Assembly: GCA_023665865.1 (NCBI GenBank)
Contig: JAMPDC010000001.1
Coordinates: 211,694-275,693, forward strand
Source of the DNA: Staphylococcus sp.
GTDB taxonomy: Bacteria > Bacteroidota > Bacteroidia > Bacteroidales > Muribaculaceae
Reading direction: 5' to 3'
DNA: 64,000 nt
Below the pieces are notes generated by a model. That model worked only from the letters and a program-made list of their open reading frames with translations. It searched no databases and was not told where the DNA came from. Within the stretch, counting starts at the first letter, position 1; every line of letters starts with the position of its first letter. The translations under genes were made by a program, and so were the position numbers. Positions 36,324 to 57,900 of this stretch are shown piece by piece.

Positions 36324-36354
36324 ACTCTGTGTCTTCAGAAAAAGTTTTTTCAGG

Positions 36355-36380: not shown

Positions 36381-36439
36381 ATATGTCGTGCCTTGTCGGT
36401 CAAGGCGTTGTCAATGTCTATTGTAGTTGGCTCCATGCG

Positions 36440-37471: not shown

Positions 37472-37510
37472 TTGGAGAGGTGTAGGTGTGTCTGTCTGAC
37501 CGACAGGGTT

Positions 37511-38782: not shown

Positions 38783-38819
38783 GATTTCTATATTGGTTTA
38801 AGAATTAATAATTTCGATG

Positions 38820-41044: not shown

Positions 41045-41081
41045 AACTACGGATACTTAGCAAGGTATTACTTGTGCGGTG

Positions 41082-41089
41082 CAAAGTTA
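41082..41089 (-). promoter_or_regulatory. -7 promoter box (TAACTTTG) of the fimbrial operon
   Basis: Exact TAnnTTTG on the minus strand, 37 bases before the DUF3575 start codon. No inverted repeats that would suggest an invertible promoter were seen in 41045-41175. Confidence 0.55.
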
Positions 41090-41175
41090 CTAAAAATTTT
41101 CTATATATAATTCATTTTAGGTTAATAAATGCGAAAAATATTTAGAAAAAGTTATCTTACCACAACCGGCACATC

Positions 41176-44100: not shown

Positions 44101-44325
44101 GTCTATCTCTTTCACTCCCCTGACCCTTGCAAGAACAGATTCAAGCCGCGACGTAACCTCGGTCTCTACTGTGCGTGCAGAGTTGCCGGGCATAGCGAAA
44201 TTGACCGTAAGACTCGGAAGCGTCTGCGATGGCGCGAGCTTTACGGGCAATAAGGGCACAAGAGCGCAACCGACTATCGCCAAGGCTATGAATGTGACTA
44301 TGACTGTAAAGGAACTTGCCTTCAT
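41176..44325 (-). CDS. RND efflux transporter permease, second of the operon
   Basis: A 1049-aa inner-membrane HAE1-type pump. TM1 (FTVIVTFIALAIVGCALVPLLPV) precedes the porter domain (NSARTVETEVTSRLESVLARVRGVKEID). TM2-TM6 include SLNLVIDNLIVMTDHYT, where the AcrB Asp-Asp pair of TM4 is Asp-Asn. The C-terminal half has GEKVLERDLETINSLMPVGYKAE, IILIIPVSFIGVFSIFYLLRLNFDQGGFASFILLAGITVNAAIYLLNEYNLL and VPIMLTVLSTILGFIPFIIGE. It is last in the operon, 37 bases after tolC. It is clearly diverged from the other permease here, so a heterotrimer like MdtB/MdtC is possible but not shown. Confidence 0.9.
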   Translation of the reverse strand: MKASSFTVIVTFIALAIVGCALVPLLPVKLAPSQTLPSLTVNFAMPGNSARTVETEVTSRLESVLARVRGVKEIDSKSYNGKGRVTISLDRHADMENTRFEVSALVRQAWSDMPEGVSYPTISLRQVEKEGARPFMTLTLNAPANPSEIQAFGEENLKPALSRITGVNKVELSGAQPMEWKLQYDIDRLGALGLTPADIRRAVSERYGSEFLGIASVDDGAGGSEWFRLSMRAEGDADSFRPEEITVTGGRGNSVTLDKIVTVTHADAAPTGYFRINGLNSIYVNITSEEDANQLRLAGEIRAALEAFRPSMPYGYMIDTAYDATEEISSELDKIYFRTGLTVLILLLFVGLVSLNLKYVLLISIGLAINIAVAVVFYYFTKIEIQLYSLAGITISLNLVIDNLIVMTDHYTRRHNIGAFTAILAATLTTMGALSVVFFMDERTRLSLQDFVTVVIINLSVSLAVALFLVPALVERLGIHRTRGRGGRFSRLRRRVVLFLSGIYGRIVSFIVRFRVAFLLIALLAFGLPVFMIPEKVEGEGRVAQAYNDIFGSSTYKETVRPITDVALGGTLRLFVEKVYNGSYWDRDPGEPVLSINATLPNGATLEQMNTLIQKMERYLGGFSEIRQFQTSVTSARRASISVFFTKEHRYDGFPYRLKGEVISKALTLGGGAWSVYGLEDQGFSNDVRENAGSYRVKLTGYNYDELSDWAYRMRDTLLTHRRIKEVTVASEFSFWKDDYTEFHLAIDRDMLAKHGLTATELYAAIEPTFGREITCGQVTVDNRMENIRLYSKQGETYDIFTLLNQPFTIGERRFKLSDVAHIEKRQAPQDIVKKNQEYVLCLQYEYIGSDVQGEKVLERDLETINSLMPVGYKAESEKRQWKREDESGKYWLLLLVIAIIFFTTSILFNSLRQPFAIILIIPVSFIGVFSIFYLLRLNFDQGGFASFILLAGITVNAAIYLLNEYNLLRRCHPHLNSLRLYMKAFRVKIVPIMLTVLSTILGFIPFIIGETRESFWYPLAIGTMGGLVMSIIAILIIFPIFVLPKSRK

Positions 44326-44362
44326 ATATTTATATCTGCCGGAGGGAGACCGGGCTGGGGTG

Positions 44363-45835
44363 TCAGTTCATGAAATCAAATTGCTCCGAAAGAGACAATC
44401 CGGTCTCGAAATCATGGAGCGTGAGACGGCGGATCTTATAGTGGCTCAACCAAAAATTCTGGAGCGCCGAGATATAGTTTTTCGAGGCCTCCTGACGGCG
44501 GTTGAGCGACAATGTCAGAGAGTTTATGTCGGCCTTACCGATGATAAATCTCTGCTGTGTCTGGAGATAGGCCATGTCAGCGAGATCGAGAGCCTCGGAG
44601 GCCGACGAGATGAGTCGCTGACGCACATCATAGTCACTGATGGTCATGATTATATCCTCCTCGATCGACAGTTCGTCTTGCCGGGCGGCGATGCGCGAGA
44701 CATTAAGATTGTTTTTTGCCATATTGACCTTGCCCTTGCGCACGCCCCAGTCAATCAAAGGCACTGAAATGGACACCGAGACGAGATCCTGGCGCAATGG
44801 GGAGCGATAGGCTCCTGAAAAGTTATCGGCAACCTGGTTGAAGCCGACTGAAGCGTTGACCGAGGCATTGAACATCGACTCAGCCTTGGTGCGGCTCACC
44901 TCGCGTTCTCCTTCGAGTATGGTCTGACGGTGGGCGAGGAGCGTTGGATTGTTTTCCTTGGCATATTCAAGCGCGAGATCGGCGGGTATAGCCACTGAGC
45001 GAGGCCTTCCGGGCATCCTCACCTCTATCTCGGTGTTCTTGTCCATCCCGAGGAAGGAGGCAAGCGAAAACATGGCCCTCTTGAGGGCTATGCGGGAGTT
45101 TTCGAGAGTATTGCGGGCGTTCACTCTGTCAAGTTCGAGCGTCAGAAGATCGGCATGAGAGATGGCAGCGATCTTATATCGACGTTGCCCGATGGTGTAG
45201 AGCGTGTCGCACGAAGCCACGTTTTCCTCCGCGAGTTTATATTCTGCCTGGGCAAGCGCGAGAGCAAAGAAATAGGTGACAGCCTGCTCGCTGACGGTCT
45301 CCATATTGTAGATAAGCTCTTTTTTAGCCTTTTCATATCGCAGCGGCTCGATCTTGCGCTCCCATTTGAAGGCATTGAAGCCGACAAGACTCTGACGGTA
45401 GCCGATACGCACGGGAACCGACGAATACTGCGTGTACTTATTGGCCCCAAAGTTGCGCATGTATTCGAGGTCCGTCTCCAGATAGAAAGTACCGCCGAGA
45501 AGATCGAAGTTCTGCTCGATTTCAAGCCCGACAGAGGCGGTGTACATCTGCTGCTGACGAAACACGTCGATATTCTCCTGTGAGTCGTAGCGCTGGGTCA
45601 TGTATCTGTAATACTGCGCCGGCAGAAGCGACAGCGACAGGCTCGGCAGTCGGCCTGCCCGATAAGTCACATATTGCCAGTAGCCCGACTGATACATGTT
45701 GCGGTATCTGAACGCCATGAGCGATGAGTCGTTGGCAAGCCCGATGGTTTGCTCAAGCGTCAGCGTCACGGCCGACATCCCGGCAGGGAGTAAGAACAGA
45801 GCGATGAGAAGTGTATATATCCTATTTCGTTTCAT
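44363..45835 (-). CDS. TolC-family outer membrane efflux channel
   Basis: A 490-aa protein with signal peptide MKRNRIYTLLIALFLLPAGMSA. Two long helical repeats typical of TolC are visible, for example ALALAQAEYKLAEENVASCDTLYTIGQRRYKIAAISHADLLTLELDRVNARNTLENSRIALKRA-type heptads and, in the second half, DLADMAYLQTQQRFIIGKADINSLTLSLNRRQEASKNYI. It overlaps the end of the first permease gene by 14 bases, so the genes are translated together. It would form the outer-membrane exit for both permeases, since no other channel gene is present. Confidence 0.9.
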   Translation of the reverse strand: MKRNRIYTLLIALFLLPAGMSAVTLTLEQTIGLANDSSLMAFRYRNMYQSGYWQYVTYRAGRLPSLSLSLLPAQYYRYMTQRYDSQENIDVFRQQQMYTASVGLEIEQNFDLLGGTFYLETDLEYMRNFGANKYTQYSSVPVRIGYRQSLVGFNAFKWERKIEPLRYEKAKKELIYNMETVSEQAVTYFFALALAQAEYKLAEENVASCDTLYTIGQRRYKIAAISHADLLTLELDRVNARNTLENSRIALKRAMFSLASFLGMDKNTEIEVRMPGRPRSVAIPADLALEYAKENNPTLLAHRQTILEGEREVSRTKAESMFNASVNASVGFNQVADNFSGAYRSPLRQDLVSVSISVPLIDWGVRKGKVNMAKNNLNVSRIAARQDELSIEEDIIMTISDYDVRQRLISSASEALDLADMAYLQTQQRFIIGKADINSLTLSLNRRQEASKNYISALQNFWLSHYKIRRLTLHDFETGLSLSEQFDFMN

Positions 45836-48800
45836 CTCTATGATATATTAGCCAATAAAACAACGGAATTATGAAAATACTCACAGCGGTACCGATGATC
45901 ATGGATCCGATCATGGCTATGGCAAGCGGACGCTGAAGTTCCGAACCCATATCAGACGTGAACAGCACCGGCACCATGGCAAATATCGTCGTGAGCGAGG
46001 TCATGATGATGGCTCTCAGGCGGCGCCGGCCAGCTGTGTGGATGGCTTCGGCCAGAGGCACCCCCCCTTTGCGGAGCTCATTGATGGCATCAAGTTTGAG
46101 GATAGAATCATTGACGACAATACCGCACGTCACGATTATGCCAATGGCTGACATCAGATTGAGGCTCTGGCCGAACATCATCAACGCAAGCAGTGCGAAT
46201 GTCGTGTCGACCGGAATCTCCAACAGGACTATCAGCGGCTGGGTGAAACTCTCAAACTGCGCACACAGGATGAAGTACATCAGCATGACCGACACAAGAA
46301 GAATCACTATCAGTTCCTTCATCATCCTCGCATTGCTGAAATAGCTTCCTACAAAGTCCACATCATGCGTATCATCGCCACGGACAATCTCAGAGATTTT
46401 CTGCATGGTCTCGTTCTCGCGCCCGCGGGCATCGAACTCCATCGGGACATACTCTCCGGCTCCACCGGCTATGATGGTCTTCAGATCGCTGCTTCCGGAG
46501 GTCTTGACGAGACGGCGCAAAGGGATCTCTGTCTGCTGCCCGTTTTTGTCAGGACGGGATTTCACAAAGCTATGGTTGATGACATCGTCAACACTCTGTT
46601 CTCTCCCGGCGATTTCAATCGGTGTATATTCCTGGAATGAACGCAGAGTAGATATGGCATTGCCTTTGAAAGCGGTGCGCAACACCCGCTCAGCCTCCGA
46701 GTAGTCGACGCCGTAGAGGGCGAGCAGATCCCGGTTTATTGAAATGTCAATCTGGCTACGCAGCGGGATTTGCGCCAGCTCCATGCCGGTCCCGGACTGC
46801 AGACGCTCCCGCAAGAGCAAGAGAGACTCCACTCCTGAGACTGAATTCCGGGCTGATGAATGTATGCGGGCCTCGATGTCGGCCTCATCACTTGAAAATA
46901 TCTTTTCGAAAATATTCTCCGGCTTCGAAAAGCGGACCGTGGCAGCAGGATATTCTTTGGCAAGGCGGTTGGCTATGCGTTTCTGAAGCGGGATGACTTC
47001 TGCCGGATCGTCGGTGAGGAAGTATAGCTCCGATTCAGCAGACGACAGGTCGATGTCGGATGACAGGAGATAGTCCTGAGGTCCGATATAGGCCGAGCAG
47101 GTCATGACGGCAGTGTCGGTGATCGCAGTGGTCCTCCGGCGGTTCTCGTCAAGATTGATATTCTCGTTCCAATCAATCCTGACAATCGTCTCCGAACTGT
47201 CAATCTCAGGCATCCTTTCCTGAGGCATCACCATGAAGAGTATCACGCAGGCCGGAACCATGAGTAAGGTGAGAATAATGAACGCCCATTTGTGACGGAA
47301 ACAGAAGTCCATACCCTTGTCATAGGCGGCGAGGTAGTGTGATGATTTCCCCTCGGCAACAACTGACTCCCGAGGAGCTTCCCATTTCTTATCTTTCTTT
47401 GAGAATATATAGTATAATACCGGCAGCAGGGTGATACCTACTATATAGCTTGATGCCAGTCCGGCAGTGATTGAAAACGCCTGATCGGAAAAAATGGCTC
47501 CGGCGATACCGCTCATGAACACCAATGGCACGAAAACGGCGATTGTGGTGAGCGAGGAGGAGAGCATAGGTGTGATCATCTCGGATGTGCCGCTCACACA
47601 GGCCGGCAGCAGACCGGCGCCACGATGCCGGTATTGCGTGATGTTTTCAGTCACGATCACAGAATTGTCAATCATCATTCCGACAGCCAGTATCAGACCT
47701 GCCATTGAGATGATGTTGATCGAGACATGGAAGAGATAAAACAGCAGGAATGTGAGGATGACACCGACGATGATGCTCAGTCCAATTATGAACGACGAGC
47801 GGATGCCACCCATGAATAGCGCGCAGACGATAAACACCAGGAGCAGACCGAGTATGAGATTCTGCTCAAGATTCGAGATTGTGAAGTCGAGCAGTTCAGT
47901 CTGACTCCTCGTCACGGAAAACTCAATGTCGGGATAGCGCTCAGAAAAGTAGTCGACTGTGGATTTCAACGCATCCTTCATGGCATCCATGCTCTCCTCG
48001 CTGTGTTTGATGACAGCAAGAGTCACCGCCCGCTTACCATCATGGAACGAGTAGCCCGCGGGGGTACGGGAGGTCAACTCCACATTGGCAAAGTCGCCGA
48101 ATGTCATCACCCTCTCCCCTTTGCGGAGACGGATCTGCCTGACATCATCGGCCGAGCGCAGCAGATTGGTGACATGGATATTGTATTCATAATAGCCATC
48201 GCGGACAGTCATGGAACCGGGCTCGACATTGTTGGCCGTCAATGCTGATTCAAGATCTTCGACAGTCACACCTATCTGCGACATGCGGTCGAGGTCAGGG
48301 GTGATCCTCAGCAGCCGCCCCGGGACTCCCGTGATATCCACCATCGCAATCTCAGGCAGTTGCTCGAGACGTCGGCGCACTATATTGTCAGCAATACTCG
48401 ACATGTCATTGAATGTCGCCTCGTCGTCGCTGCGCGAAGTGAGCTGAATATACACGACCGGTATGTCAGTCGCACTGGCCTTGACGGCTTTAGGACGGCG
48501 GACGCTCTTAGGCAACGAGTTCATGGCTCCGTCGATCTTCTCATTTACCTCTATGAAGGCAAGATCTGTGTTGACGCCATAGTCCATTGTCAGCGTCACA
48601 ACTGCCGAACCGTCGCGTGTCTCACTTCTGATCTCATTGAGTCCTCCCACCTGCATGAGCTGCCGGCGGAGTGGAGCCACAACGGTGTTCTCAAGCTCCC
48701 TGGCAGAAACATTTTCCTCTGTCACCTGCACGGTGATATGTGGAATCGCAATGTCCGGCAACAATGACACCGGAAGCGTGACATAAGTGACACACCCGAG

Positions 48801-48863
48801 TATGACCAAAGCCAGAAAAGCCATGATCACTGCTATGCGGTGGTTCAGGAGATATTTTATCAT
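45822..48863 (-). CDS. RND efflux transporter permease, first of the operon
   Basis: A 1013-aa inner-membrane pump of the HAE1/AcrB type. TM1 is HRIAVIMAFLALVILGCVTYVTLPVSLLPDI, with the porter domain starting ENVSARELENTVVAPLRRQLMQVGGLNEI. TM4 carries LAVGMMIDNSVIVTENITQYR, again Asp-Asn in place of the AcrB Asp-Asp pair. The second half has VDTTFALLALMMFGQSLNLMSAIGIIVTCGIVVNDSILKLDAINELR. Its substrate is unknown; lipophilic toxins or bile salts would be typical. It is separated from the adaptor by a 194-bp MITE-like insert. Confidence 0.92.
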   Translation of the reverse strand: MIKYLLNHRIAVIMAFLALVILGCVTYVTLPVSLLPDIAIPHITVQVTEENVSARELENTVVAPLRRQLMQVGGLNEIRSETRDGSAVVTLTMDYGVNTDLAFIEVNEKIDGAMNSLPKSVRRPKAVKASATDIPVVYIQLTSRSDDEATFNDMSSIADNIVRRRLEQLPEIAMVDITGVPGRLLRITPDLDRMSQIGVTVEDLESALTANNVEPGSMTVRDGYYEYNIHVTNLLRSADDVRQIRLRKGERVMTFGDFANVELTSRTPAGYSFHDGKRAVTLAVIKHSEESMDAMKDALKSTVDYFSERYPDIEFSVTRSQTELLDFTISNLEQNLILGLLLVFIVCALFMGGIRSSFIIGLSIIVGVILTFLLFYLFHVSINIISMAGLILAVGMMIDNSVIVTENITQYRHRGAGLLPACVSGTSEMITPMLSSSLTTIAVFVPLVFMSGIAGAIFSDQAFSITAGLASSYIVGITLLPVLYYIFSKKDKKWEAPRESVVAEGKSSHYLAAYDKGMDFCFRHKWAFIILTLLMVPACVILFMVMPQERMPEIDSSETIVRIDWNENINLDENRRRTTAITDTAVMTCSAYIGPQDYLLSSDIDLSSAESELYFLTDDPAEVIPLQKRIANRLAKEYPAATVRFSKPENIFEKIFSSDEADIEARIHSSARNSVSGVESLLLLRERLQSGTGMELAQIPLRSQIDISINRDLLALYGVDYSEAERVLRTAFKGNAISTLRSFQEYTPIEIAGREQSVDDVINHSFVKSRPDKNGQQTEIPLRRLVKTSGSSDLKTIIAGGAGEYVPMEFDARGRENETMQKISEIVRGDDTHDVDFVGSYFSNARMMKELIVILLVSVMLMYFILCAQFESFTQPLIVLLEIPVDTTFALLALMMFGQSLNLMSAIGIIVTCGIVVNDSILKLDAINELRKGGVPLAEAIHTAGRRRLRAIIMTSLTTIFAMVPVLFTSDMGSELQRPLAIAMIGSMIIGTAVSIFIIPLFYWLIYHRDETK

Positions 48864-48874
48864 GGATTTGAATG

Positions 48875-49068
48875 GAGAATTGAGAATGGAGAATTAGCGT
48901 TTTGATGGCAGTGTTTTGATGCTGCTTGATAATATCGCGTATATTTCTGAGCAATCAGCATAAAGCGATTTAAACATTTCTTCAGTCATAATCTCTGACT
49001 CATAAAGAATTTCGAGCCAATATTTCGTTTCTGCACATTTGTTCAAAGCTTTTCCATTCTCAATTCTC
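48875..49068. mobile_element. MITE-like unit with 16-bp terminal inverted repeats
   Basis: gagaattgagaatgga at 48875-48890 recurs exactly as its reverse complement at 49053-49068, framing a 194-bp unit between the adaptor and permease genes. The inside carries the tail of a four-helix-bundle gene. The right repeat supplies the last codons and stop of the adaptor gene (GTC GAG AAT TGA). No transposase is present, so any movement would need help in trans. Confidence 0.6.
48894..49055 (-). pseudogene. remnant of a four-helix-bundle (S23/23S rRNA-intervening-sequence) protein gene
   Basis: Translation of the minus strand gives, without a start codon, ALNKCAETKYWLEILYESE then IMTEEMFKSLYADCSEIY and a short tail before TAA at 48894. 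The pattern E-T-x-Y-W-L-E-x-L-x-E-x-x-x-(I/L)-T-E-E-x-(F/Y)-x-x-(L/I)-Y-x-D-C-x-E-I is the C-terminal end of S23 proteins, which are usually about 120 aa. Only about 53 codons remain, so the first half is gone. These genes are often found as movable units in Bacteroidota. The call rests on my reading of the family pattern. Confidence 0.6.
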
Positions 49069-50121
49069 GACTCTAACGGGTGCTTCGTGGGCGAGGTTTA
49101 CATTGCCCGAAGTGATCACTGTCATGCCGGGTTTGAGGCCGTCGGTGACGGTGTATTCATTGAGATTTTCAAGACCGGTGGTGACATAATTCCAGATAGC
49201 TTTGTCATCACGGAGGGTAAAAACGACCTGACGCCCGGAGCGGAGCACGACGGCACTCTTCGGGACAACCAAGGCTTCGGCGACGGCGCGCCTGACGCTG
49301 ACCCTGACATTCATTCCGTCGATCAAGCCATTGCCGCCATTGACAGATGCCCACACTTTGACCATGCCGTTTTCATCGACCATAGGATTGATCTCTGTCA
49401 CCCGTCCCTGGCGGGTATCACCACCCGAAAACGGCGTGACTGAAATATGATCGCCTGTTTTCACCATAGGCAACTCGCTCTCGAGAATGGAAAATTCGAC
49501 ATCCATCCCTCCTTCGTTGATGATACGACACAGAGGTTCTGAAGCCGAGGAAATATTATGAGGTTTTGCAGAAAGATTTGCTATTGTACCGCTGATCGGT
49601 GCCACCAAGGTGGCATCGTCAATGTCGCGCTGAGTGGCCGCAAGTGAAAGCTCGGCCTGATCAAGACCGCTACGCAGACGGGCGAGCCTCATCACTTCGT
49701 CGGGGACATTCTCAAGATGCTCCGGGTCATATCCCTGCCCGATTATCACATCCTGCAACTCAAGCCGTGCCGATGCGACGGCATTGCGGTCTTTTGACAA
49801 CTGATTTTCGAGTTTATACGCATCGAGAGAGGCGATCTTCTGGCCTTTAGCCACATGCTGACCGTTTCTGACATAGATGGCCGAAATCAAACCGGGTGTC
49901 TGGAAATTGATATCGACACGTTCGCGGGCTGTAAGGCGCCCGTTGCTTACGATCTCATGGTTGAACATCTTCGGTTGCAGATCCATCACCGTAACTTCTG
50001 CCACCTTGTCGGCCACAGGATCGGAGACCATGACGGTCGCTGTGTCGGTATTCTCATCCTTGGTATTGCCACATGCCGCAGTCAACAATGCTACTGAAAA
50101 TAATATGGTCAGTTGTCTCAT
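49060..50121 (-). CDS. RND efflux periplasmic adaptor (membrane fusion protein)
   Basis: A 353-aa lipoprotein (MRQLTILFSVALLTAAC lipobox at C17). It has the adaptor layout: a first beta-barrel/lipoyl half (VNFQTPGLISAIYVRNGQHVAKGQKIASLDAYKLENQL), a coiled-coil hairpin (about 95-155), the second lipoyl half (DDATLVAPISGTIANLSAKPHN) and the membrane-proximal domain (TVTDGLKPGMTVITSGNVNLAHEAPVRVEN). It bridges the permeases and TolC. It heads the operon and its last codons lie within the terminal repeat of the MITE-like unit, but the length and end look complete. No clear -7 box was found in 50122-50243. Confidence 0.92.
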   Translation of the reverse strand: MRQLTILFSVALLTAACGNTKDENTDTATVMVSDPVADKVAEVTVMDLQPKMFNHEIVSNGRLTARERVDINFQTPGLISAIYVRNGQHVAKGQKIASLDAYKLENQLSKDRNAVASARLELQDVIIGQGYDPEHLENVPDEVMRLARLRSGLDQAELSLAATQRDIDDATLVAPISGTIANLSAKPHNISSASEPLCRIINEGGMDVEFSILESELPMVKTGDHISVTPFSGGDTRQGRVTEINPMVDENGMVKVWASVNGGNGLIDGMNVRVSVRRAVAEALVVPKSAVVLRSGRQVVFTLRDDKAIWNYVTTGLENLNEYTVTDGLKPGMTVITSGNVNLAHEAPVRVEN

Positions 50122-50243
50122 GATTGGTCAATAATTGGTTTGTCTTCGCTGATACTTTACTTATCAATTAAGGGCGCTGACTCTAAAATGAATATTTCGT
50201 AAAGTTATGAAATATAATTGGATTATCACTAAGAAATCGAGTG

Positions 50244-51125
50244 TTAATGCTTGTTAAGGATGGTGAATATGCGGTCATTGTCCCGCGAACGCCATAGGAT
50301 GCCGGCAGTCCCGACGATAAACTTTTCAGGTACAAGACCGAAATAGCGCGAGTCTCTTGAATCGACCACATGGTCGCCGGCGGTAAAGCAATAATCTTCC
50401 TTAAAAGTATAATTCTCCACCGCTTTCCCATCCATAAGGGCTATCGAATCCTGCCACACGAGTTTTCGCTTGGTCTCCCACTCGATATACTTACGGTAGA
50501 GCATCCAATTTTTCAAATCCAACCGGATCTTCATACCTCTGGAGGGAATCACGAGCGGCCCCATCTCTTTCACAGTCCATCCGAAGATAGAATCCTTGGG
50601 ATGACACCTCATCCATCCGGGCCACTTGCTGCTGTCGGGCTCCACGCGGCTATGATCGGCCACGAGCCTGCGAAGCATCATCTGTTCGCTCGCAACACCG
50701 AGAGTATCACGGCAGCCTCTCACCCGATAAAAACAATCCTTTATCTCAAGCGTGTCGCCGGCCACCGCGACAGCACGTTTGCAATAATATGTGGCAAGGT
50801 TCATCGCTATGCTGTCACGCTTCTTGTCACTGTCGAGATAGGGATAATTGAAGATGATTACGTCGCCACGCTCGAGCCTCCCGTATCCCGGCAGCCGTCT
50901 GATCTCATAAGGCTTCCCCTCTATCGCATCGAAAATGTCAAAGATCCTCGCCCCAAGCTTCCACTTGTTGACAAGTCCACTCTCGTCGGGACGCAAAGTC
51001 GGCTGCATCGAGCCCGATGGGGTATGAAACGAACAAGTCGTGGTAACCTGAACCATGGTATAGATAACTACCAAGGCGGCCACGACAATTATCAAGTTCA
51101 GCAGTACATCAATGAATCGTTGCAT
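50244..51125 (-). CDS. lepB: signal peptidase I, dedicated copy in the NVEALA cluster
   Basis: A 293-aa inner-membrane serine protease that removes signal peptides. One N-terminal helix (LLNLIIVVAALVVIYTMVQV) is followed by box B with nucleophile S39 in PSGSMQPTL, box C/D GYGRLERGDVIIF, the general base K116 in YYCKRAVAVAGDTLE, and box E AGDHVVDSRDSRYFGLVPEKFIVG. All catalytic elements are present, so it should be active. It is last in a same-strand group with the NVEALA peptide gene, 105 bases after the O-antigen-ligase-like gene. A housekeeping copy is expected elsewhere; this one may serve the cluster's own substrates, which is inference. Confidence 0.92.
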   Translation of the reverse strand: MQRFIDVLLNLIIVVAALVVIYTMVQVTTTCSFHTPSGSMQPTLRPDESGLVNKWKLGARIFDIFDAIEGKPYEIRRLPGYGRLERGDVIIFNYPYLDSDKKRDSIAMNLATYYCKRAVAVAGDTLEIKDCFYRVRGCRDTLGVASEQMMLRRLVADHSRVEPDSSKWPGWMRCHPKDSIFGWTVKEMGPLVIPSRGMKIRLDLKNWMLYRKYIEWETKRKLVWQDSIALMDGKAVENYTFKEDYCFTAGDHVVDSRDSRYFGLVPEKFIVGTAGILWRSRDNDRIFTILNKH

Positions 51126-51230
51126 TGTCTAAACATTAATTCAAACATCATAAAAAAGAGTATCGCAATAAGATTCTATCATTATCTTTATATTCTTATA
51201 ATACTTAAGATTTTCACAATATATATAGTT

Positions 51231-52547
51231 TCATTTCATACATGAATCAGAGGTTTCATTACTAAGTATCTCGCGGGCTTTTTGCTGCATTTCTTCTACG
51301 GCCGGGGAAGCGATCTTTTCTTTTTTAGTAATCAGAATTTCAGCTTCCTTAATCATCTTGTTTCTGTCACGGTTTATTGAATCACTGTAAAGCAGCATCA
51401 ATAGATAGTGGGGATAGAGACGGTTGGGGCAACGATTGACCGATTTCCGGAAATAATACTCCGCACTGTCAGGCATACCGAGTGCCTGATAGTTTTTGCC
51501 TATGATATTAAGAATCATCGGGTCACTTGATTTAGACAACAAATCGAGGAGCATATCATTTGACTGACGGTAGCATTGCTGACGATGCTGAGCATGGCCG
51601 ACAGAGAACCTCGCGCCGACATCCTCCCGATGACTGTTGGTCAGAAACATCGCTCCACACACCACAACCACACTGCAACCGGCCATCCGCAGCCACTTTG
51701 AGGGAGATTGCAGACAGCACCCCGCGAGGATAAGACAAATGATGGCTGTGAAAAAGGGAAATTGGAGGGGATAGGACGCAAACATCACTATTGCGACCGC
51801 TGCCACACTACCGGCATAGCCATAAGCTCTGCCCCGCAGCGCCGTAAGGAATCCGCCGGCCAAGAGGACTACCAATACCACTCCCGCAAGCGGCCCGAAT
51901 GATAGCATGACTTGTAAATACTCATTGAATACATATTCAGGGGCATCAGCTACCATCATTTCCTGCTCCGAACCATTGCCGGCTGCAAAATATCGCTCCT
52001 GCGCTTCTCCGTAGGCCCCTGCAACATTATCCCATCCGACTCCGGTCAACGGGACTTCCCCCACGGCTTCGGCTGCGACTTTCCAGATCAGCAGACGTCC
52101 GTCGGCCGAATCTTTTTTCACCGCATAGAGACCCACTACCAAAACCACAGCCAGGCCCACGGCCGCAAGCGCCCATATCAGGTTAAACTTCCGCAGATAT
52201 TCCCGGATGCAATCACTCATCGCCACAGCCGAGCCGACGACTACAGCCAACAAAGCCGTACGGCTGAGGGTCGCAGGGATAAGTACCGCGCCCAACAGGA
52301 CAATTCCGGTTGCCGCATATCGGATGACTCTGCCCTCGGCCTCTCTCATCATAAACACAGCCAACGGGACGACGACAGCCAGAAAACAAGCGTATGGCCC
52401 CGGATTATAAAATGTCCCGGTGAAGACATAGCCGCGATGGTGGCTGTGCATAACACCCATCCACTGAAGAATACCAATCCCAGCCTCCACATATCCGAGA
52501 GCAAGAATGATATACAAGACAATATTACCCGAAAATCTGCCGGCCAT
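51231..52547 (-). CDS. O-antigen ligase/polymerase-like membrane protein with C-terminal TPR-like region
   Basis: A 438-aa inner-membrane protein from ATG 52547; the longer frame starts with TTG at 52571. About ten transmembrane helices occupy residues 10-320. The Wzy/WaaL-type loop is visible (GWDNVAGAYGEAQERYFAAGNGSEQEMMVADAPEYVFNEYLQVMLSFGPLAGV), including the usual H/E-rich periplasmic stretch. The last 110 residues are helical and TPR-like (IIGKNYQALGMPDSAEYYFRKSVNRCPNRLYPHYLLMLLY). The family joins glycans to lipid or protein, or polymerises them. In this type of Bacteroidales cluster it recurs beside NVEALA genes; whether it glycosylates the peptide is not known. Confidence 0.8.
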   Translation of the reverse strand: MAGRFSGNIVLYIILALGYVEAGIGILQWMGVMHSHHRGYVFTGTFYNPGPYACFLAVVVPLAVFMMREAEGRVIRYAATGIVLLGAVLIPATLSRTALLAVVVGSAVAMSDCIREYLRKFNLIWALAAVGLAVVLVVGLYAVKKDSADGRLLIWKVAAEAVGEVPLTGVGWDNVAGAYGEAQERYFAAGNGSEQEMMVADAPEYVFNEYLQVMLSFGPLAGVVLVVLLAGGFLTALRGRAYGYAGSVAAVAIVMFASYPLQFPFFTAIICLILAGCCLQSPSKWLRMAGCSVVVVCGAMFLTNSHREDVGARFSVGHAQHRQQCYRQSNDMLLDLLSKSSDPMILNIIGKNYQALGMPDSAEYYFRKSVNRCPNRLYPHYLLMLLYSDSINRDRNKMIKEAEILITKKEKIASPAVEEMQQKAREILSNETSDSCMK

Positions 52548-52726
52548 CTCGTGTGTATTTAATCGTATCAATCTATCTATAATAGCATTGATATTCCAGA
52601 GTGAAATTGAAATTCCGTATCAATTTCTCTCTGAAATATCTAAGGCAACGGCATAGCTTAAAAAGTCATACAATTTAATCGTTGTTTTACAATTATCTCA
52701 AAGCGATTTTTTGCTACAGTAAAGAC

Positions 52727-53056
52727 CTATTTACCCGTTTTCTTTCCTTTGGATTTTCTGGTCGACCGTTTTGTTGCCGCTTTGGGGCTCTCATAGTTGG
52801 CAGAATTCTTGTCGAGCCGCTTCAACACGTCTTCTTTAATAGTTATGAAGACCGAGTCTTTCTTGACAAATACCATTGTCAGATCAGAATGGTAGAGCGA
52901 CTCATAGGCAGTCTTTGCAAGTACCTTGCCATTGTTTGTGATTTTGACCGGGAGTTTTGAATCAAATTTTGCATCTTCAGGGATTTCCACATAGGCCTGC
53001 CCAAACATATTTAAGCTTGCGCATATTAATGCCGCGCAAAGAAATAAAGATTTCAT
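52727..53056 (-). CDS. small secreted protein with lysine-rich tail
   Basis: A 109-aa protein of unknown family. It has a signal peptide (MKSLFLCAALICASLNMFG/QAY). The mature part starts VEIPEDAKFDSKLPVKITNNGKVLAK and is predicted soluble; the tail ATKRSTRKSKGKKTGK is strongly basic and could bind an acidic surface or polymer. It lies 33 bases after the propeller lipoprotein and upstream of the O-antigen-ligase-like gene on the same strand. Confidence 0.6.
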   Translation of the reverse strand: MKSLFLCAALICASLNMFGQAYVEIPEDAKFDSKLPVKITNNGKVLAKTAYESLYHSDLTMVFVKKDSVFITIKEDVLKRLDKNSANYESPKAATKRSTRKSKGKKTGK

Positions 53057-53089
53057 GATATTCTATTGAATTAAAAGATTGGTTAGTTG

Positions 53090-54145
53090 TCAAAGTTTAT
53101 ATCTCATTAGTATCGGATCCGGATTATTCTCGACGGTATAGAGATAGCCGTTCTGAAAATCGGCATCAAAAGCTATGGCCTCATTGCCGAATACATATTG
53201 CTTCACCGGCTGCCCTTTCCAGTCAAATTCCAGCACTTTGCCTATTCCGCGGTTAAAATCCTCATCTTTCTCTGCCTTTACTCCAATATAGCCGACTAAA
53301 AATGACTTGTCGCCGGCGGATACTCTTGAAAACATAAACCACATCGGACGTGGATTATATGAGACACCAATACCTCTCTCGGATTTCTCAATCTTTATGC
53401 CATCGTCGACAGGCGCTCTCAATGCAATCCGACTGCCATCGGCAAGAGAATAGACATCTATTTCATTCCACGATTTGCAAGCGATCGCCATCATGCCATT
53501 TGAAGGACACAATGCCATATCGGACTGGAAGATAAAATTGCTTGGCTGAATCGAATCGGGCATCTCCGTGTTCGGGAAACCGCCTAACGAGTCGACCGCG
53601 ACACCACTCGCGTCGACCCTAATCACTCTTGTATCATACTTTGTAGCCGGGAGCCCATACACATCACCTTTGCCGTCCGTCACTCCTCTCAACAAATCCA
53701 CAGGCGACTTGATCTTCAATTCAGTGACAGCCTCATCACCATCCGGATTCCATCGTGTCGTCATGATCTTACGGTCCATCAATCCCGACATCCACAAGCG
53801 GCCATCCGCGTCACAGCTTAAAGTCGTGACACGGAGCATTTCGTCGGGCCCCTCACCTCTTTTCACAGCAATCTGAGTCTGACCGGTGTTAAGATTATAT
53901 AATGTGACATGCGCTTCTCTTGCATTTTGGCAGATGGCAATGATTGAGTCATCCACGACCTTGATATTTGTCACGATGCCGAGCACATCCGGGTCATCAG
54001 AGATCTGCTCGCCCGTAGCTGAAAGATCTACTTCCTGGAAGTCATTGAAATCAAAGGTTGCGACATTCGAAGATGTCTCTTCCTTGCCTTCTCCGCATCC
54101 GGTCAGACACAGAGCGGCTACGGCATATAAAAAGCTGTTCCGCAT
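53090..54145 (-). CDS. six-bladed beta-propeller lipoprotein (BF3164/TolB-like)
   Basis: A 351-aa lipoprotein. The start MRNSFLYAVAALCLTGC at 54145 gives a proper lipobox; the longer frame to 54241 does not start with a signal. Propeller repeats are visible (KVVDDSIIAICQNAREAHVTLYNLNTGQ, RGEGPDEMLRVTTLSCDADGRLWMSGLMDRKI, GKVLEFDWKGQPVKQYVFGNEAIAFDADFQNGYLYTVENNPDP). RGxGPxEML is a hallmark of the BF3164-like family, which recurs in NVEALA clusters. The propeller probably faces the periplasm or surface and may bind the peptide or a receptor; no enzyme activity is indicated. Confidence 0.8.
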   Translation of the reverse strand: MRNSFLYAVAALCLTGCGEGKEETSSNVATFDFNDFQEVDLSATGEQISDDPDVLGIVTNIKVVDDSIIAICQNAREAHVTLYNLNTGQTQIAVKRGEGPDEMLRVTTLSCDADGRLWMSGLMDRKIMTTRWNPDGDEAVTELKIKSPVDLLRGVTDGKGDVYGLPATKYDTRVIRVDASGVAVDSLGGFPNTEMPDSIQPSNFIFQSDMALCPSNGMMAIACKSWNEIDVYSLADGSRIALRAPVDDGIKIEKSERGIGVSYNPRPMWFMFSRVSAGDKSFLVGYIGVKAEKDEDFNRGIGKVLEFDWKGQPVKQYVFGNEAIAFDADFQNGYLYTVENNPDPILMRYKL

Positions 54146-54246
54146 GCACAACTTGAAACTATCTATAAATTTTAAAATACTCATATAATTACTGATTGTA
54201 GCCTCATATGCTATTTTTATGATACATGAGGCTTTATACAAGCTAC

Positions 54247-54501
54247 CTATTCATAATAATTCCAAGCAACCATTTCATCACAATAGACTGTATAAGCTGA
54301 AGTCTTCACCCAACATACATAACCATTGCGGTTTTTACAATACGAATAACAATAATCACTCACTTCTTCAATTTGAGTTAAGGCTTCTACATTTGCCAAG
54401 GTCAGCATATTAACATCCGAAGATTCTGTTTGTGATTGGTATGCAAGGATACCACTGAGACCTGCAATAGCTACAAGAGTAGCGAAAACTAATTTATTCA
54501 T
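54247..54501 (-). CDS. NVEALA family secreted cysteine-containing peptide
   Basis: An 84-aa precursor. An N-terminal signal segment (MNKLVFATLVAIAGLSGILAY) leads to the family motif NVEALT at 37-42. The region after the motif (about 42 residues) is rich in aromatic residues and has four cysteines at 51, 55, 63 and 74 (C-x3-C-x7-C-x10-C), enough for two disulfides. No lipobox is present. The NVEALA motif resembles a leader boundary: a conserved leader followed by a variable cysteine core, as in bacteriocin and signal-peptide precursors. It sits 14 bases after the thioredoxin-DUF1573 gene. Its processing and function are not established. Confidence 0.85.
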   Translation of the reverse strand: MNKLVFATLVAIAGLSGILAYQSQTESSDVNMLTLANVEALTQIEEVSDYCYSYCKNRNGYVCWVKTSAYTVYCDEMVAWNYYE

Positions 54502-54515
54502 GATTTAATATGGTT

Positions 54516-55379
54516 TTAATTAATTATATTTCCTGAAATTTTCAGGATTGTTGGTTTATCGAAATCTTTATAATAAATATGGACGGTGTTCATGAATTCT
54601 CCCACTATTGAGTCTTCTTTAAAAACCACATTAATGGGCAGAGACGATGCCGGTGGTATGAAAGAAGACTTTGTGTGGGCCTCCGTACAATGACATGATG
54701 GTATAATCTTACGTATAAACACAGTGTCAAGGCCTTGATTCTGAAGCAGGAAGTCGACCGAATATGATTTTCCGACTATGATTTCACCTAACGGACGTTG
54801 AGATTCTTCAACACTCACGGCAAGACGGCCGGAGGTGCTGTAGGTCTTGTCTCCCGAAATTATAGTCTTATACATGTCTGCCACAGAATTGTTGTAGACC
54901 GGATTTCCTATAGCTATGACCCGTCTGTTGCTGTCGAGGAGGAAAGACCGGAACATAAACTCTTCAGGAAATCCATTAGCAGCGCCGATCCCATGGTCAA
55001 GATCGTTTATCACAGGAAATTGGAAATTATCTCTCTTGATGAGATAAGCGAGTTCATCCTTATCGGGTGAGCTGACAATTATGAGCGACGCCACAGAGTA
55101 GTCTGTCGTCAACTCATCGATTGAGTTCAAGAATTCCTTCCATACCGGCAGTTTCATCTTGCAACCAGTGCAGCCGGCGCTGTCGACATAGGTCAGTATT
55201 GTGAAATCGGCGTTCGAGAGATCGATGGTGTCGCCCGTGAGGGCGTCGGTCATGACATCGGGCAGCTTGATTTCCTTACCCTGCCACTCCTCAACGATAG
55301 CCGCATAACGCTCAGCCTCCGACGGACGGGAGCATGCGCAGAACACTAATAACAATAGTGGATATAAGACGCGGGACAT
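54516..55379 (-). CDS. thioredoxin-like/DUF1573 lipoprotein
   Basis: A 287-aa lipoprotein (lipobox LLLVFCAC). Residues 30-165 form a thioredoxin/AhpC-like domain: FTILTYVDSAGCTGCKMKLPVWKEFLN holds a C-x-x-C, then VIVSSPDKDEL and FLLDSNRRVIAIGNPV. Residues 185-287 form a DUF1573-like Ig fold (GEIIVGKSYSVDFLLQNQGLDTVFIRKIIPSCHCTEA...PINVVFKE). The usual place of such proteins is the periplasm or surface. A redox-active Cys pair beside a four-cysteine peptide gene suggests a role in its disulfide handling, which is inference. It begins 22 bases after the small gene at 55402. Confidence 0.8.
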   Translation of the reverse strand: MSRVLYPLLLLVFCACSRPSEAERYAAIVEEWQGKEIKLPDVMTDALTGDTIDLSNADFTILTYVDSAGCTGCKMKLPVWKEFLNSIDELTTDYSVASLIIVSSPDKDELAYLIKRDNFQFPVINDLDHGIGAANGFPEEFMFRSFLLDSNRRVIAIGNPVYNNSVADMYKTIISGDKTYSTSGRLAVSVEESQRPLGEIIVGKSYSVDFLLQNQGLDTVFIRKIIPSCHCTEAHTKSSFIPPASSLPINVVFKEDSIVGEFMNTVHIYYKDFDKPTILKISGNIIN

Positions 55380-55401
55380 GGTGGAATTATCAACGTAGTT
55401 A

Positions 55402-55779
55402 TTAGAGATCTATATAGCCTGTATAGACATACGAGCAGGTAGTAAACCGAATAATATGCTCTCCTTTCAAGCCCTCCAGAAACTCAATGAAATCCTCTTC
55501 ATCTGAGAATGTGACGCCGACTGAACCCTCCTCGGTATCACAAACCTCATATATAATTATGTCATAGGAGATTCCGTCGACGGTTCGCTGGCTGAAGTCG
55601 ATGGTACACATCACCGGCCTAGGAGGAGTCCGTCGGCCAGTGGCAGGCTCATCGTAATTATCAGGAATATCCCATTCTATTGGTGTCCCATTCATTGCCA
55701 CAGTATGCACTCCGTCACTTGCCAACATAATGATGTTGGAAACAAAAAAGGTAATTAGAATTATAAGGTATCTTTTCAT
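55402..55779 (-). CDS. small secreted protein, possibly DUF3244-like
   Basis: A 125-aa exported protein, first gene after the promoter at 55802. The start MKRYLIILITFFVSNIIMLAS at 55779 is a signal peptide; the longer frame to 55866 begins upstream of the promoter. The mature part has TPPRPVMCTIDFSQ, DIIIYEVCDTEEGSVGVTFSDEEDF and the end HIIRFTTCSYVYTGYIDL, an alternating beta pattern reminiscent of DUF3244 beta-sandwich proteins. Three cysteines are present. The family call is tentative. It probably belongs to the same message as the NVEALA peptide. Confidence 0.6.
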   Translation of the reverse strand: MKRYLIILITFFVSNIIMLASDGVHTVAMNGTPIEWDIPDNYDEPATGRRTPPRPVMCTIDFSQRTVDGISYDIIIYEVCDTEEGSVGVTFSDEEDFIEFLEGLKGEHIIRFTTCSYVYTGYIDL

Positions 55780-55801
55780 ATTGAGAATGATTTTTTCCCA
55801 A

Positions 55802-55832
55802 CAAAAGTAGACAACCCTCCTTTGGTACACAA
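55802..55832 (-). promoter_or_regulatory. promoter of the NVEALA operon
   Basis: -7 box TACTTTTG at 55802-55809 (minus strand), with TTG at 55830-55832 as the -33 element, separated by 20 bases, the preferred Bacteroidales spacing. Start near 55795 gives a 16-base leader to the ATG at 55779. Confidence 0.65.
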
Positions 55833-55839
55833 GTTTTTT

Positions 55840-55938
55840 GGAGCGGGAAAAGAGCGGAATTTTCAATCTTCTAAATTTCAGATATTTGCATCCGCTTTCC
55901 GTTTCTTTATATTCCTTTTTCCGCTCTAATTCCGCTCC
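55840..55938. repeat. inverted pairs of GAGCGG repeats flanking the NVEALA promoter
   Basis: GAGCGG at 55841-55846 and 55852-55857 are spaced 11 bases apart just upstream of the -33 TTG. CCGCTC at 55921-55926 and 55932-55937, also 11 apart, form the inverse pair 63 bases further on. The arms (18 bases, 3 mismatches) could form a stem, but no U run follows, so a protein-binding site is more likely than a terminator. Confidence 0.5.
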
Positions 55939-55954
55939 ATTACATAGTGGTTTT

Positions 55955-57655
55955 CTATAAAAAATGTATAAGCCTGTCGACTGTGGTTATCCCAACATTC
56001 TCTCCGAATATCTTTTGTCCGAGATAAGCACGGCGCGACGATATTGAACCTTTGACTTTGAAGAGAAGAGTGGCCATATCTTTTGGGGGAATACCACACT
56101 TGATAAGAAGCGCGATCTGAAAATCAGTCTCACTAAGGCGTCCGGAAGTGAGAGCTTCAAGCTTGGGTCTCAACTCCGGCGACGACAACGAAACGGTCTC
56201 GGAAAGTTTCACCCACAAAGATGGAGAAGACACGCCGCTTCCGGATGAGATCAATCGTTTCAACTCGGCATACACGTCCGATCTGAGGATTGACTCAGGC
56301 ACATCATAAGGCGCCGGACTCTCCTCGAGATTACGGACTTTGGCTAATAGCAGTTTTTTGGCGTTAGGCAAATCGTATTGATTATTAAGTTCCATACTCC
56401 CACACGCGGCGGAACTCTGTAATTCCTGTTGCAACACACCAGAGCGAGTCCTGAGAATGTCAATCAGATCCATCGCCCGGCGGACTTTGTGTAACCTCAC
56501 TGAACTTTTATATTTAAAATAGAAGGTTGAGACAGCCAAAACCAAGCCCGTCAGGAGTGTTATTATAAGAATCCATATGATCTTGTCTCTCGAAGCTTTG
56601 ATTTGATCACGCTCACTGACATGCCTCTGATAGTTGTAATATGAATTCTGTATCAGTGCGCCCTGAGCTTCGTGAGTATCAAGATACTTTTTTAGGACAT
56701 CGGCATATTCAAGAGCATAGATTCTAACAGAATCATCAGGGAGGAAACCACAAAGGTCAGGAGACAAGACCATATTATAGCCTATCCTGCGATTGTTGAA
56801 ATTCCGGCTTTTTGCTAATTCGTGGGCATACATATAAGCTGTATCCATAATCCCTGCCGAATAATATATCGAGGCGGCGCTGCTCAAAGCCCTATTGCGA
56901 TCAAGAGGCAAAACGATGTCAGGAAGCTTTCTCACCAGGCTCAGTGCAGAATCAATATTACCTTTCCCATGTTGAATATCTGCCAAATACATGACAACAC
57001 CAGCACTATCGGCAGGCGATAGCATCGGTGCATATCTAATAGCCTCCCGGATGCATCTAGAGGCTTTATCATAGTCTTTTAGATGCAGATAGACGGCACC
57101 AAGCAAACGGTTGTCATAAACGATACCGAATGTATCGGGCAATTCATAATCGATACTGAGACATTCTTCCAGATATGGGATAGCCTGGTCATTGAGCCGA
57201 ATGGCGTTCAGCAATCTTCCTGTCTGACTTAATATATTTGCCCGAAAATCGAGCAGATCCTTGTCCTCCGGGAGCTTCTCGAGAGCCTGTTGGAAATAGC
57301 GGAGGGCTGTCGGTGCGTCGCCGAGGTCAGAGTAGACGCGGCCGGCATAGTAGAGCGCCTCGGCATAGTGGTCGTCGCTGCCGTGGTCGGCATAGTAGTC
57401 AACCACAGAGAGGATGAGGCTGTCGGAGGGATGAGCGGCGTATGACTTGTCGGCCGCCTTGATCCGGAGCAGGCCATAACGGTTACGGTCGCGGTCTGAG
57501 AACGCCGACGGGTCGATGCTGTCGAGCCGTGCCATGGCCAGTCCGGGGTTGACGGGGATGATGGAGTCGATCTCCATGAAAAGCGCATCGTGGGCTCCGC
57601 CGCCACACGAGCACAGCAGGGAGAGCAGGAGAAGGATATGCAGGAGCTGTCGCAT
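55955..57655 (-). CDS. membrane-anchored TPR regulator with C-terminal LuxR-like HTH
   Basis: A 566-aa one-component signalling protein. The N-terminus MRQLLHILLLLSLLCSC is a lipoprotein-type signal. Residues about 25-340 hold TPR repeats (AEALYYAGRVYSDLGDAPTALRYFQQALEKL, DNRLLGAVYLHLKDYDKASRCIREAIRYAP). A transmembrane helix at about 355-378 (IIWILIITLLTGLVLAVSTFYF) passes the chain to the cytoplasm. The C-terminus has the HTH-like LSETDFQIALLIKCGIPPKDMATLLFKVKGSISSRRAYLGQKIFG. Similar TPR-TM-HTH proteins precede NVEALA-type operons in Bacteroidales. It probably senses an envelope cue and acts on the downstream promoter at 55802-55832. Confidence 0.78.
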   Translation of the reverse strand: MRQLLHILLLLSLLCSCGGGAHDALFMEIDSIIPVNPGLAMARLDSIDPSAFSDRDRNRYGLLRIKAADKSYAAHPSDSLILSVVDYYADHGSDDHYAEALYYAGRVYSDLGDAPTALRYFQQALEKLPEDKDLLDFRANILSQTGRLLNAIRLNDQAIPYLEECLSIDYELPDTFGIVYDNRLLGAVYLHLKDYDKASRCIREAIRYAPMLSPADSAGVVMYLADIQHGKGNIDSALSLVRKLPDIVLPLDRNRALSSAASIYYSAGIMDTAYMYAHELAKSRNFNNRRIGYNMVLSPDLCGFLPDDSVRIYALEYADVLKKYLDTHEAQGALIQNSYYNYQRHVSERDQIKASRDKIIWILIITLLTGLVLAVSTFYFKYKSSVRLHKVRRAMDLIDILRTRSGVLQQELQSSAACGSMELNNQYDLPNAKKLLLAKVRNLEESPAPYDVPESILRSDVYAELKRLISSGSGVSSPSLWVKLSETVSLSSPELRPKLEALTSGRLSETDFQIALLIKCGIPPKDMATLLFKVKGSISSRRAYLGQKIFGENVGITTVDRLIHFL

Positions 57656-57714
57656 AGAGTAAGTTCAATGTATGTGCTGGATACGAAACTAAAGCAACTA
57701 TATGATTGCAGTTG

Positions 57715-57722
57715 CAAAGATA
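57715..57722 (-). promoter_or_regulatory. -7 promoter box (TATCTTTG) of the TPR regulator
   Basis: Exact TAnnTTTG on the minus strand, 60 bases upstream of the ATG at 57655. No GAGCGG repeat is nearby, so self-regulation is not indicated. Confidence 0.5.
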
Positions 57723-57843
57723 CGAATAAGAATTTAAAGAGAAAATCGACCACAGGTGATGATCCCGCGGGAAAAAATGTCCAAAACAGTAATGATGGTT
57801 ATGAGTTCCGTATTTATGGTTAATTATTTTGGAAATCATATAT

Positions 57844-57851
57844 TAATTTTG
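57844..57851 (+). promoter_or_regulatory. -7 promoter box (TAATTTTG) of the TonB-dependent receptor gene
   Basis: Exact TAnnTTTG match 49 bases before the ATG at 57901, divergent from the TPR regulator promoter. An upstream ATG at 57882 is out of frame with the receptor. Confidence 0.55.
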
Positions 57852-57900
57852 CACTATCCAAGATACTTTTATGAATAAGATATGAAAAAAACGATTACTG

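Follow-up and report, generated by a model that had tools for sequence, protein, structure and literature searches.

A stretch of 64,000 nucleotides (hereafter the window) from a genome deposited as Staphylococcus sp. and placed by GTDB in the Muribaculaceae (Bacteroidales; GCA_023665865.1, contig JAMPDC010000001.1, positions 211,694 to 275,693) was analyzed with respect to a gene cluster that encodes a small protein of the NVEALA family together with a propeller lipoprotein, a signal peptidase and an exporter of the RND type. Twelve genes lie on the minus strand from position 57655 down to 41176 (Table 1), with intergenic gaps of 14 to 196 bases and with overlapping frames of RND pump 1 and the outer membrane factor (OMF). 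An earlier note on this DNA, made from the letters and their open reading frames, had described the upper eight of these genes (50244..57722); all eight were found on the minus strand and their positions and family matches were borne out, but the run continues behind the signal peptidase with four exporter genes that the note had omitted. Families were assigned by scans against Pfam and NCBIfam with curated cut-offs, the four exporter proteins being scanned with Pfam only. The run is probably devoted to the production and export of a small secreted peptide, which would have a lipoprotein as its cognate partner.

Table 1. Features of the cluster in the window, in the direction of the minus strand.
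Feature	Position	Strand	Basis
Bacteroidetes-type -7 box (TATCTTTG) upstream of the TPR gene	57714..57722	-	consensus match
TPR regulator-like protein, 566 aa, two transmembrane-like segments	55955..57655	-	family scans, transmembrane prediction, relatives
Bacteroidetes-type -7 box (TACTTTTG) ahead of the 11-gene run	55801..55809	-	candidate transcript start
sm125, small secreted protein, no family match	55402..55779	-	family scan, locus comparison
Thioredoxin-like + DUF1573 lipoprotein, CxxC	54516..55379	-	Pfam, alignment
NVEALA precursor, 84 aa: helix, leader motif, four-cysteine core	54247..54501	-	Pfam
NVEALT motif, residues 37-42; proposed signal-peptidase cut at motif end	54376..54393	-	
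Variable core peptide, residues 43-84, four Cys	54250..54375	-	sequence
TolB_like 6-bladed propeller lipoprotein, proposed cognate partner of the core	53090..54184	-	Pfam, co-inheritance
sm109, small secreted protein, no family match	52727..53056	-	family scan
Membrane protein with Wzy_C domain and TPR-like C-terminus; ORF opens with TTG, actual start uncertain	51231..52571	-	
Dedicated short signal peptidase I (S26), Ser39 and Lys116 present	50244..51125	-	Pfam/NCBIfam
Membrane fusion (adaptor) protein, MFP, of RND exporter; HlyD families	49060..50121	-	Pfam
RND pump 1 (RND1), ACR_tran, AcrB-type	45822..48863	-	Pfam
TolC-like outer membrane factor, OMF (OEP)	44363..45835	-	Pfam
RND pump 2 (RND2), ACR_tran	41176..44325	-	Pfam

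Precursor, propeller, signal peptidase and exporter

The NVEALA protein of the window scored 28.9 bits against PF14055, narrowly above the cut-off of 27, and its gene is the sole match in its genome at E <= 0.001. The four cysteines that the earlier note had ascribed to it are present and all lie C-terminal of the motif, which here reads NVEALT. For comparison, 204 copies were labelled, of which 159 were kept after removal of duplicates, of proteins shorter than 55 residues and of those without a readable motif. In this set, conservation of the motif residues N, E, A and L is 94-97%, and the core behind the motif is hypervariable and cysteine-rich, with a median length of 42 residues and with an even number of cysteines in 124/159 precursors (odd in 35/159). 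NVEALA proteins therefore look like precursors in which a conserved helix and LANVEALA leader are followed by a variable core, and such a conserved leader with a variable core is a mark of bacteriocin clusters. Signal peptidase I sites carry small residues at -3 and -1, and the pattern A/S-x-A/G/S/T stands at the motif end in 152/159 precursors (strict AxA in 121/159), any AxA within approximately 20 residues before the motif end being present in only 19/159. We infer that the precursor would be cut at the motif end by the dedicated signal peptidase, at a site further from the membrane helix than in ordinary signal peptides.

A propeller gene is located directly downstream of 137 of the 159 NVEALA genes. 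The propeller of the window scored 41.0 bits against TolB_like (cut-off 29.2), and the three propellers and three NVEALA proteins of the family loci that are nearest to those of the window are direct neighbours of each other. Similarities were analyzed for 133 core-propeller pairs, 26/159 precursors without a directly adjacent propeller of at least 250 residues being left out, and were compared only between copies from different genomes or loci, with identical core-propeller pairs removed. Core similarity correlated with propeller similarity at r = 0.66, as compared to r = 0.05 for leader and propeller, and within-genome shuffling of partners yielded a mean r of 0.20 and a maximum of 0.43, so that 0/1000 shuffles reached the observed value. 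Dereplication to 129, 119 and 111 pairs left r at 0.61, 0.58 and 0.49, each again reached by 0/1000 shuffles, and where a core had a close counterpart elsewhere (56 cores), the propeller paired with that counterpart ranked best in 32 cases and among the top three in 47. Moreover, D. muris (L032, 11146-12519) and a congener (L035, 10262-11636) have 1375 bp at 97.2% identity in common; this block starts at codon 35 of the NVEALA gene and ends near the propeller end, and the leaders do not align. Because of the co-variation and this shared block, core and propeller are regarded as one exchangeable cassette, a partner gene co-inherited with the core being a further mark of bacteriocin clusters. 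The pairing and the RND exporter, the two strongest clues, had both been overlooked in the earlier note. Besides the pairs, runs of several propeller genes without peptide genes were observed, L035 and L242 each having six consecutive ones. In L155, L160 and L165, propeller genes also interrupt the exporter's series of adaptor, RND and OMF genes, and a DUF4221 protein found in the cluster of B. fragilis L230 (5796-6962) and of G168 (L142:15097-16335) is possibly another propeller-type partner.

The signal peptidase I of the cluster had been described as complete, which is in accordance with its scores of 78.1 bits against PF10502 (cut-off 22.9) and 68.3 bits against TIGR02227 (cut-off 47) and with the presence of the Ser-Lys dyad; catalytic Ser and Lys were found in 75/75 non-identical S26 proteins of at least 240 residues. 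Likewise, the description of a CxxC-bearing thioredoxin-DUF1573 lipoprotein agrees with a DUF1573 part at 59.2 bits (cut-off 26.1) and a CTGC in the thioredoxin-like part ahead of it, the latter staying under the Redoxin cut-off (23.6 vs 26.6 bits), and CxxC is present in 65/65 such proteins of at least 250 residues. The exporter is tripartite, with adaptor, pump and outer membrane factor encoded together. The aspartate that serves as proton-relay residue in RND pumps is conserved in 64/64 RND1 and 44/44 RND2 proteins of at least 900 residues, and the order MFP-RND1-OMF-RND2 was observed for 53/71 adaptor genes, eight more showing RND1 only in view. Both pumps are ACR_tran RND proteins and not MacB-type ABC pumps, and no C39 peptidase-ABC exporter family was detected among the twelve genes, within the scope of the scans given above. 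As a side observation, a MauE domain fused to further domains is encoded beside S26 in G168 (L142:11543-13627); the relative in G176 (L166) is without the MauE part, but begins at the contig end.

Distribution of the cluster in Bacteroidales

Co-occurrence was counted in 198 genomes of the family and, for the order set of 295 genomes, in 66 genomes searched for the parts, namely every NVEALA-positive genome from outside the family (16) and the first 50 of the NVEALA-negative ones. The S26 cut-offs (E 1e-24 for the family; 1e-37 for the order, from a 1e-10 search) and the Wzy_C cut-off of 1e-40 were chosen with knowledge of the gap that separates the short enzyme, or the closer Wzy_C relatives, from all other matches. 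NVEALA was detected in 13/198 family genomes at E <= 0.001, 11 of them over the Pfam cut-off. As compared to the 185 negative genomes, the NVEALA-positive ones more often carried the short S26 (11/13 vs 8/185, E <= 1e-24), Wzy_C (11/13 vs 20/185 at E <= 1e-10; 11/13 vs 5/185 at 1e-40), the adaptor (11/13 vs 13/185, E <= 1e-30) and a transglutaminase-like lipoprotein (10/13 vs 23/185). For the genus, where 17 genomes were searched for both, the short S26 was present in 4/5 NVEALA genomes vs 0/12 others. In the order, NVEALA was found in 17/295 genomes, and the short S26 (E < 1e-37) was present in 8/16 positive vs 0/50 negative genomes, Wzy_C in 11/16 vs 2/50 and the adaptor in 10/16 vs 7/50. 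The association of signal peptidase, O-antigen-ligase-like protein and NVEALA, which the earlier note had put forward for counting in related genomes, held in family and order, and in the genus for S26. Furthermore, a profile built from 24 precursors (A1) recognized a precursor in 8/15 family genomes that carry system parts but no Pfam NVEALA match.

Named genomes were scanned with the Wzy_C alignment alone, and the best 80 of 154 relatives gave 79 distinct loci, 26 of them shorter than 15 kb. The labelling models were built on family loci and some named loci belong to genomes of the sets above (e.g., L193 = G090), so this sample depends in part on the family set. They include Phocaeicola vulgatus ATCC 8482, two Bacteroides fragilis, B. 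faecis, Parabacteroides distasonis, Dysgonomonas and Odoribacter. A propeller was labelled in 66 of the 79 loci, S26 in 60, NVEALA in 53, the transglutaminase-like lipoprotein in 52, the thioredoxin-DUF1573 protein in 49 and the adaptor in 46; the corresponding counts for the 53 loci of at least 15 kb are 50, 44, 45, 38, 39 and 41. A common order starts with thioredoxin-DUF1573, NVEALA and propeller genes in varying copies and order, followed by transglutaminase-like lipoprotein, S26, Wzy_C, adaptor, RND1, OMF and RND2. For 78 full Wzy_C genes, S26 was located directly upstream in 37 and the adaptor directly downstream in 23, with frame overlaps of S26 and Wzy_C in B. fragilis L230, of Wzy_C and MFP in P. 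distasonis L269 and also between pump genes. The transglutaminase-like lipoprotein has approximately 600-700 residues (e.g., L059:13165-15024); it does not appear to be essential, since none was found in the genome of the window at E <= 1e-10. Between its gene and S26, a Glutaminase-A-like protein is encoded in B. faecis (L223:7021-8901), and ORFs similar in size, the only feature compared, occupy this position in B. congonensis (L214) and others.

The TPR regulator-like protein is a distant relative only of the NCBIfam BT3442 family (59.2 bits, cut-off 940), and transmembrane-like segments at residues 4-22 and 359-377 are compatible with a membrane anchor. Of the membrane-anchored TPR-HTH regulator proposed earlier, the TPR repeats and the two segments were thus retained, but no family match in Pfam or NCBIfam confirmed the helix-turn-helix. 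Neither sm125 nor sm109 reached the cut-off of any Pfam or NCBIfam family. Relatives of sm125 come after the TPR gene in L032, L059 and L144, another small protein, weakly DUF3244-like and below cut-off, takes this position in other loci (L043), and relatives of sm109 adjoin propellers in L039/L134 and L192. PDB sequence searches with the thioredoxin-DUF1573, propeller, sm125 and Wzy_C proteins returned no informative match; the leading PDB matches of the Wzy_C profile were TPR proteins, on its C-terminal part, and the viral contigs scanned with the Wzy_C protein contained no relative. After the box at 55801-55809, the next -7 boxes on the minus strand fall within RND1, within the terminal part of RND2 and then at 41081-41089, positions which would fit one transcript from sm125 to RND2. 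The -7 box is frequent in the window (33 observed vs 11.4 expected) and was matched alone, the strict Bacteroides promoter pattern with a -33 box having no site in the cluster. PADLOC recognized no defence family in nine scanned cluster proteins (pumps and OMF not included), and Rfam yielded no match over gathering scores within 41000-58000. Directly behind RND2, at 35271-41044, fimbrillin-like and DUF3575/lipoprotein-like genes follow that resemble a fimbriae cluster, as judged from their translations and not from a family search; this run has its own -7 box at 41081-41089.

Proposed pathway and alternative readings

On the basis of these genes, we propose that Sec would insert the NVEALA precursor via its N-terminal helix, so that leader and cysteine-rich core would be periplasmic, where the thioredoxin-like DUF1573 lipoprotein would handle the core cysteines, most likely making or correcting disulfides. 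Subsequently, the short S26 would cut after the A-L-A/S/T motif end and free the core, which adaptor, the two RND pumps and the TolC-like channel may then move from the periplasm to the outside. The adjoining propeller lipoprotein, co-inherited with the core, would bind it as its specific partner, and the Wzy_C-TPR protein belongs to the same unit. This anatomy, with its CxxC, Ser/Lys dyad and cleavage site at the frequencies given above, fits the part of the earlier proposal according to which the cluster makes, oxidises and processes a secreted peptide; the suggested glycosylation is not supported, as discussed below. With regard to the propeller, immunity against an antagonistic peptide is its most likely role, held tentatively and at a little under even chances: we lean to it because the propeller runs without peptide genes resemble a reserve of immunity genes. 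A signal receptor, which fits nearly as well, is the second choice and a rather doubtful one, and otherwise the propeller might be a carrier or surface part.

Several observations weigh against a dedicated peptide cluster. The rank correlation between core and propeller similarity is only 0.11, unrelated cores dominating the pairs, and the best-matching propeller fits the best-matching core in no more than 32/56 cases. The genomes counted share ancestry, by which Fisher values overstate independence and p-values are a guide only. Parts are missing at the cut-offs from NVEALA genomes of the family (S26, Wzy_C and MFP in G034, S26 in G185, Wzy_C in G161, MFP in G162) and of the order (short S26 in 8/16, Wzy_C in 5/16, MFP in 6/16). 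Moreover, the adaptor occurs in 13/185 family genomes without recognized NVEALA, and such RND clusters imply that the pump may carry another cargo; no labelled NVEALA or propeller stands beside S26/Wzy_C of G055 (L135) or alongside the pumps of G074 (L154), G185 (L159) and G143 (L156), and profile A1 also matched 2/15 control genomes without the system (G117, G142). The window's own site, A-L-T, is a weaker signal-peptidase site, the thioredoxin-DUF1573 gene is directly upstream of just 44/149 NVEALA genes with one in view, and RND pumps are best known for small-molecule cargo. Finally, the genes with their linkage and co-occurrence, the catalytic residues, the architecture of the precursor and the co-inheritance of core and propeller were observed as such; cleavage, disulfides, export and activity of the peptide are deduced from sequence.

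Among the alternatives, signalling survives best, although we consider it unlikely. The peptide would then be a pheromone sensed by the propeller, the signal would be passed toward the TPR regulator, and the cores would represent pherotypes. A hypervariable core with a co-inherited partner is in line with this, as is the finding that relatives of the TPR regulator-like gene head the cluster in several Muribaculaceae loci. By contrast, such a relative was labelled in just 10/79 named loci, so that the cluster's own regulator claimed earlier holds loosely, the TPR gene having its own promoter-like box; in addition, no sensor kinase was matched among the twelve genes, and the propeller runs without peptide genes in L035 and L242 fit immunity at least as well.

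Less probable still is that RND, Wzy_C and S26 proteins build or ship a glycan, lipid or surface polymer, with NVEALA proteins and propellers in a structural or accessory role. The Wzy_C domain does belong to glycan ligases and polymerases, propellers are found beside RND clusters without labelled NVEALA (L163, L164, L165), and the NVEALA-negative genomes with an adaptor point in the same direction. Nevertheless, the A1 precursors in part-carrying genomes outnumber those in controls, no glycosyltransferase family besides Wzy_C was matched in the twelve genes (Pfam/NCBIfam; exporter proteins Pfam only), and hypervariable cysteine-rich cores are unlike a structural subunit.

O-glycosylation of the NVEALA core with Wzy_C as oligosaccharyltransferase, as the earlier note had suggested, is improbable. 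The O-antigen-ligase domain scored 57.4 bits (cut-off 31.7), and Arg104 and Arg159 are present in 95/95 Wzy_C relatives of at least 400 residues, both compatible with such a function. However, these 95/95 relatives carry a Phe where a weak, non-significant alignment (probability 0.5%) to E. coli WaaL puts the ligase histidine; since this alignment is not significant, loss of ligase chemistry is a hint and not a finding. In a report on the O-oligosaccharyltransferase PglS, whose histidine was matched to that of WaaL, the exchange His324Ala serves as inactive control (PMC12800693). The lack of further glycan genes among the cluster's matches also argues against glycosylation. The ORF of the Wzy_C protein starts with TTG and family relatives align from approximately residue 12-29, a few named ones from residue 1, which leaves its true start uncertain; it does not look truncated, since close relatives are similar in length (approximately 420-460 residues). 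Lastly, unrelated neighbours in a gene-rich accessory region, to which the accessory, patchy distribution might point, are a very remote explanation and largely refuted by the co-occurrence counts, as the same parts recur in loci picked by one part across several Bacteroidales families and co-occur in genomes even where some are unlinked.

Relation to known systems

The dedicated peptide cluster proposed here can be compared with several systems. The heat-stable enterotoxin II (STII) of E. coli is a Sec substrate which, once cleaved and disulfide-bonded in the periplasm, is exported by MacAB-TolC (PMC8277102). The likeness lies in a small Sec peptide, periplasmic cleavage and disulfides and a tripartite pump, as proposed here from the genes, whereas the present cluster has an RND exporter with two pumps, a linked S26, a thioredoxin-DUF1573 protein and a Wzy_C protein. 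Unlike STII, NVEALA peptides are hypervariable and come with a co-inherited propeller; no sequence relation is claimed. Class II bacteriocin and microcin clusters (described in part in PMC8277102) likewise have a leader that is conserved and a core that varies, an exporter of their own, a cognate gene next to each precursor and partner genes without a precursor. In contrast to double-glycine C39-ABC systems, no C39/ABC family was matched, the leader is a membrane helix with LANVEALA and the partner is a propeller. PEP-CTERM/exosortase systems combine a membrane protease, a Wzy_C-type membrane protein and TPR proteins, as does the present cluster, with weak NCBIfam matches: the Wzy_C protein reached 19.1 bits against the PEP-CTERM/exosortase-type family, far below the cut-off of 188.1. 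Here, S26 takes the place of the exosortase and an N-terminal leader that of the C-terminal sorting signal.

In the MACPF cluster BT_3442-BT_3433 of B. thetaiotaomicron, a series of lipoprotein genes is bordered on one side by genes for a TPR protein and a small Ig-like protein (PMC2954219). In the window, the succession of the TPR gene and sm125 (55402-57655) recalls the BT_3442/BT_3441 arrangement; the TPR proteins are related only distantly, as seen from the score given above, and the cargo differs. Furthermore, the iron-response tables of B. thetaiotaomicron list an O-antigen ligase (BT0662), a propeller (BT0664), a signal peptidase (BT0667) and an RND adaptor (BT0669) with significance-column values of 0.11 to 0.35, and the accessible part of that report does not discuss them as a cluster (PMC10434189). 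By annotation, not by sequence, these entries point the same way, to the same system in B. thetaiotaomicron. No mention of the NVEALA name was found in the open-access literature (subscription journals mostly outside, bioRxiv excluded), nor a description of the gene system in the open literature, subscription journals again lying mostly outside. As far as searchable, this is a real, conserved gene system of gut Bacteroidales that is undescribed.

Dedicated peptide export with a matched partner gene is of a known kind, and the present system has a fair chance of proving a class of its own. Such a separate Bacteroidales peptide-secretion class, a possibility that we rate just short of even, would be marked by a LANVEALA leader, a dedicated S26, a two-pump RND exporter and exchangeable matched core-propeller pairs, either toxin/immunity or signal/receptor, and would be represented among gut commensals by P. 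vulgatus, B. faecis, P. distasonis and D. muris. If true, the NVEALA, TolB_like propeller and DUF1573-thioredoxin families would be tied to one pathway, and an RND pump would have its peptide cargo encoded alongside. With D. muris DSM 103720, P. vulgatus ATCC 8482 and B. faecis MAJ27, cultured strains carry the cluster, which makes gene deletion tests feasible now. If the reading holds, common gut Bacteroidales would possess a peptide arsenal or language that has been overlooked and that leaves the cell by a route of its own and, as the cores differ from copy to copy, the peptides could set tolerance or sensing among close gut relatives.

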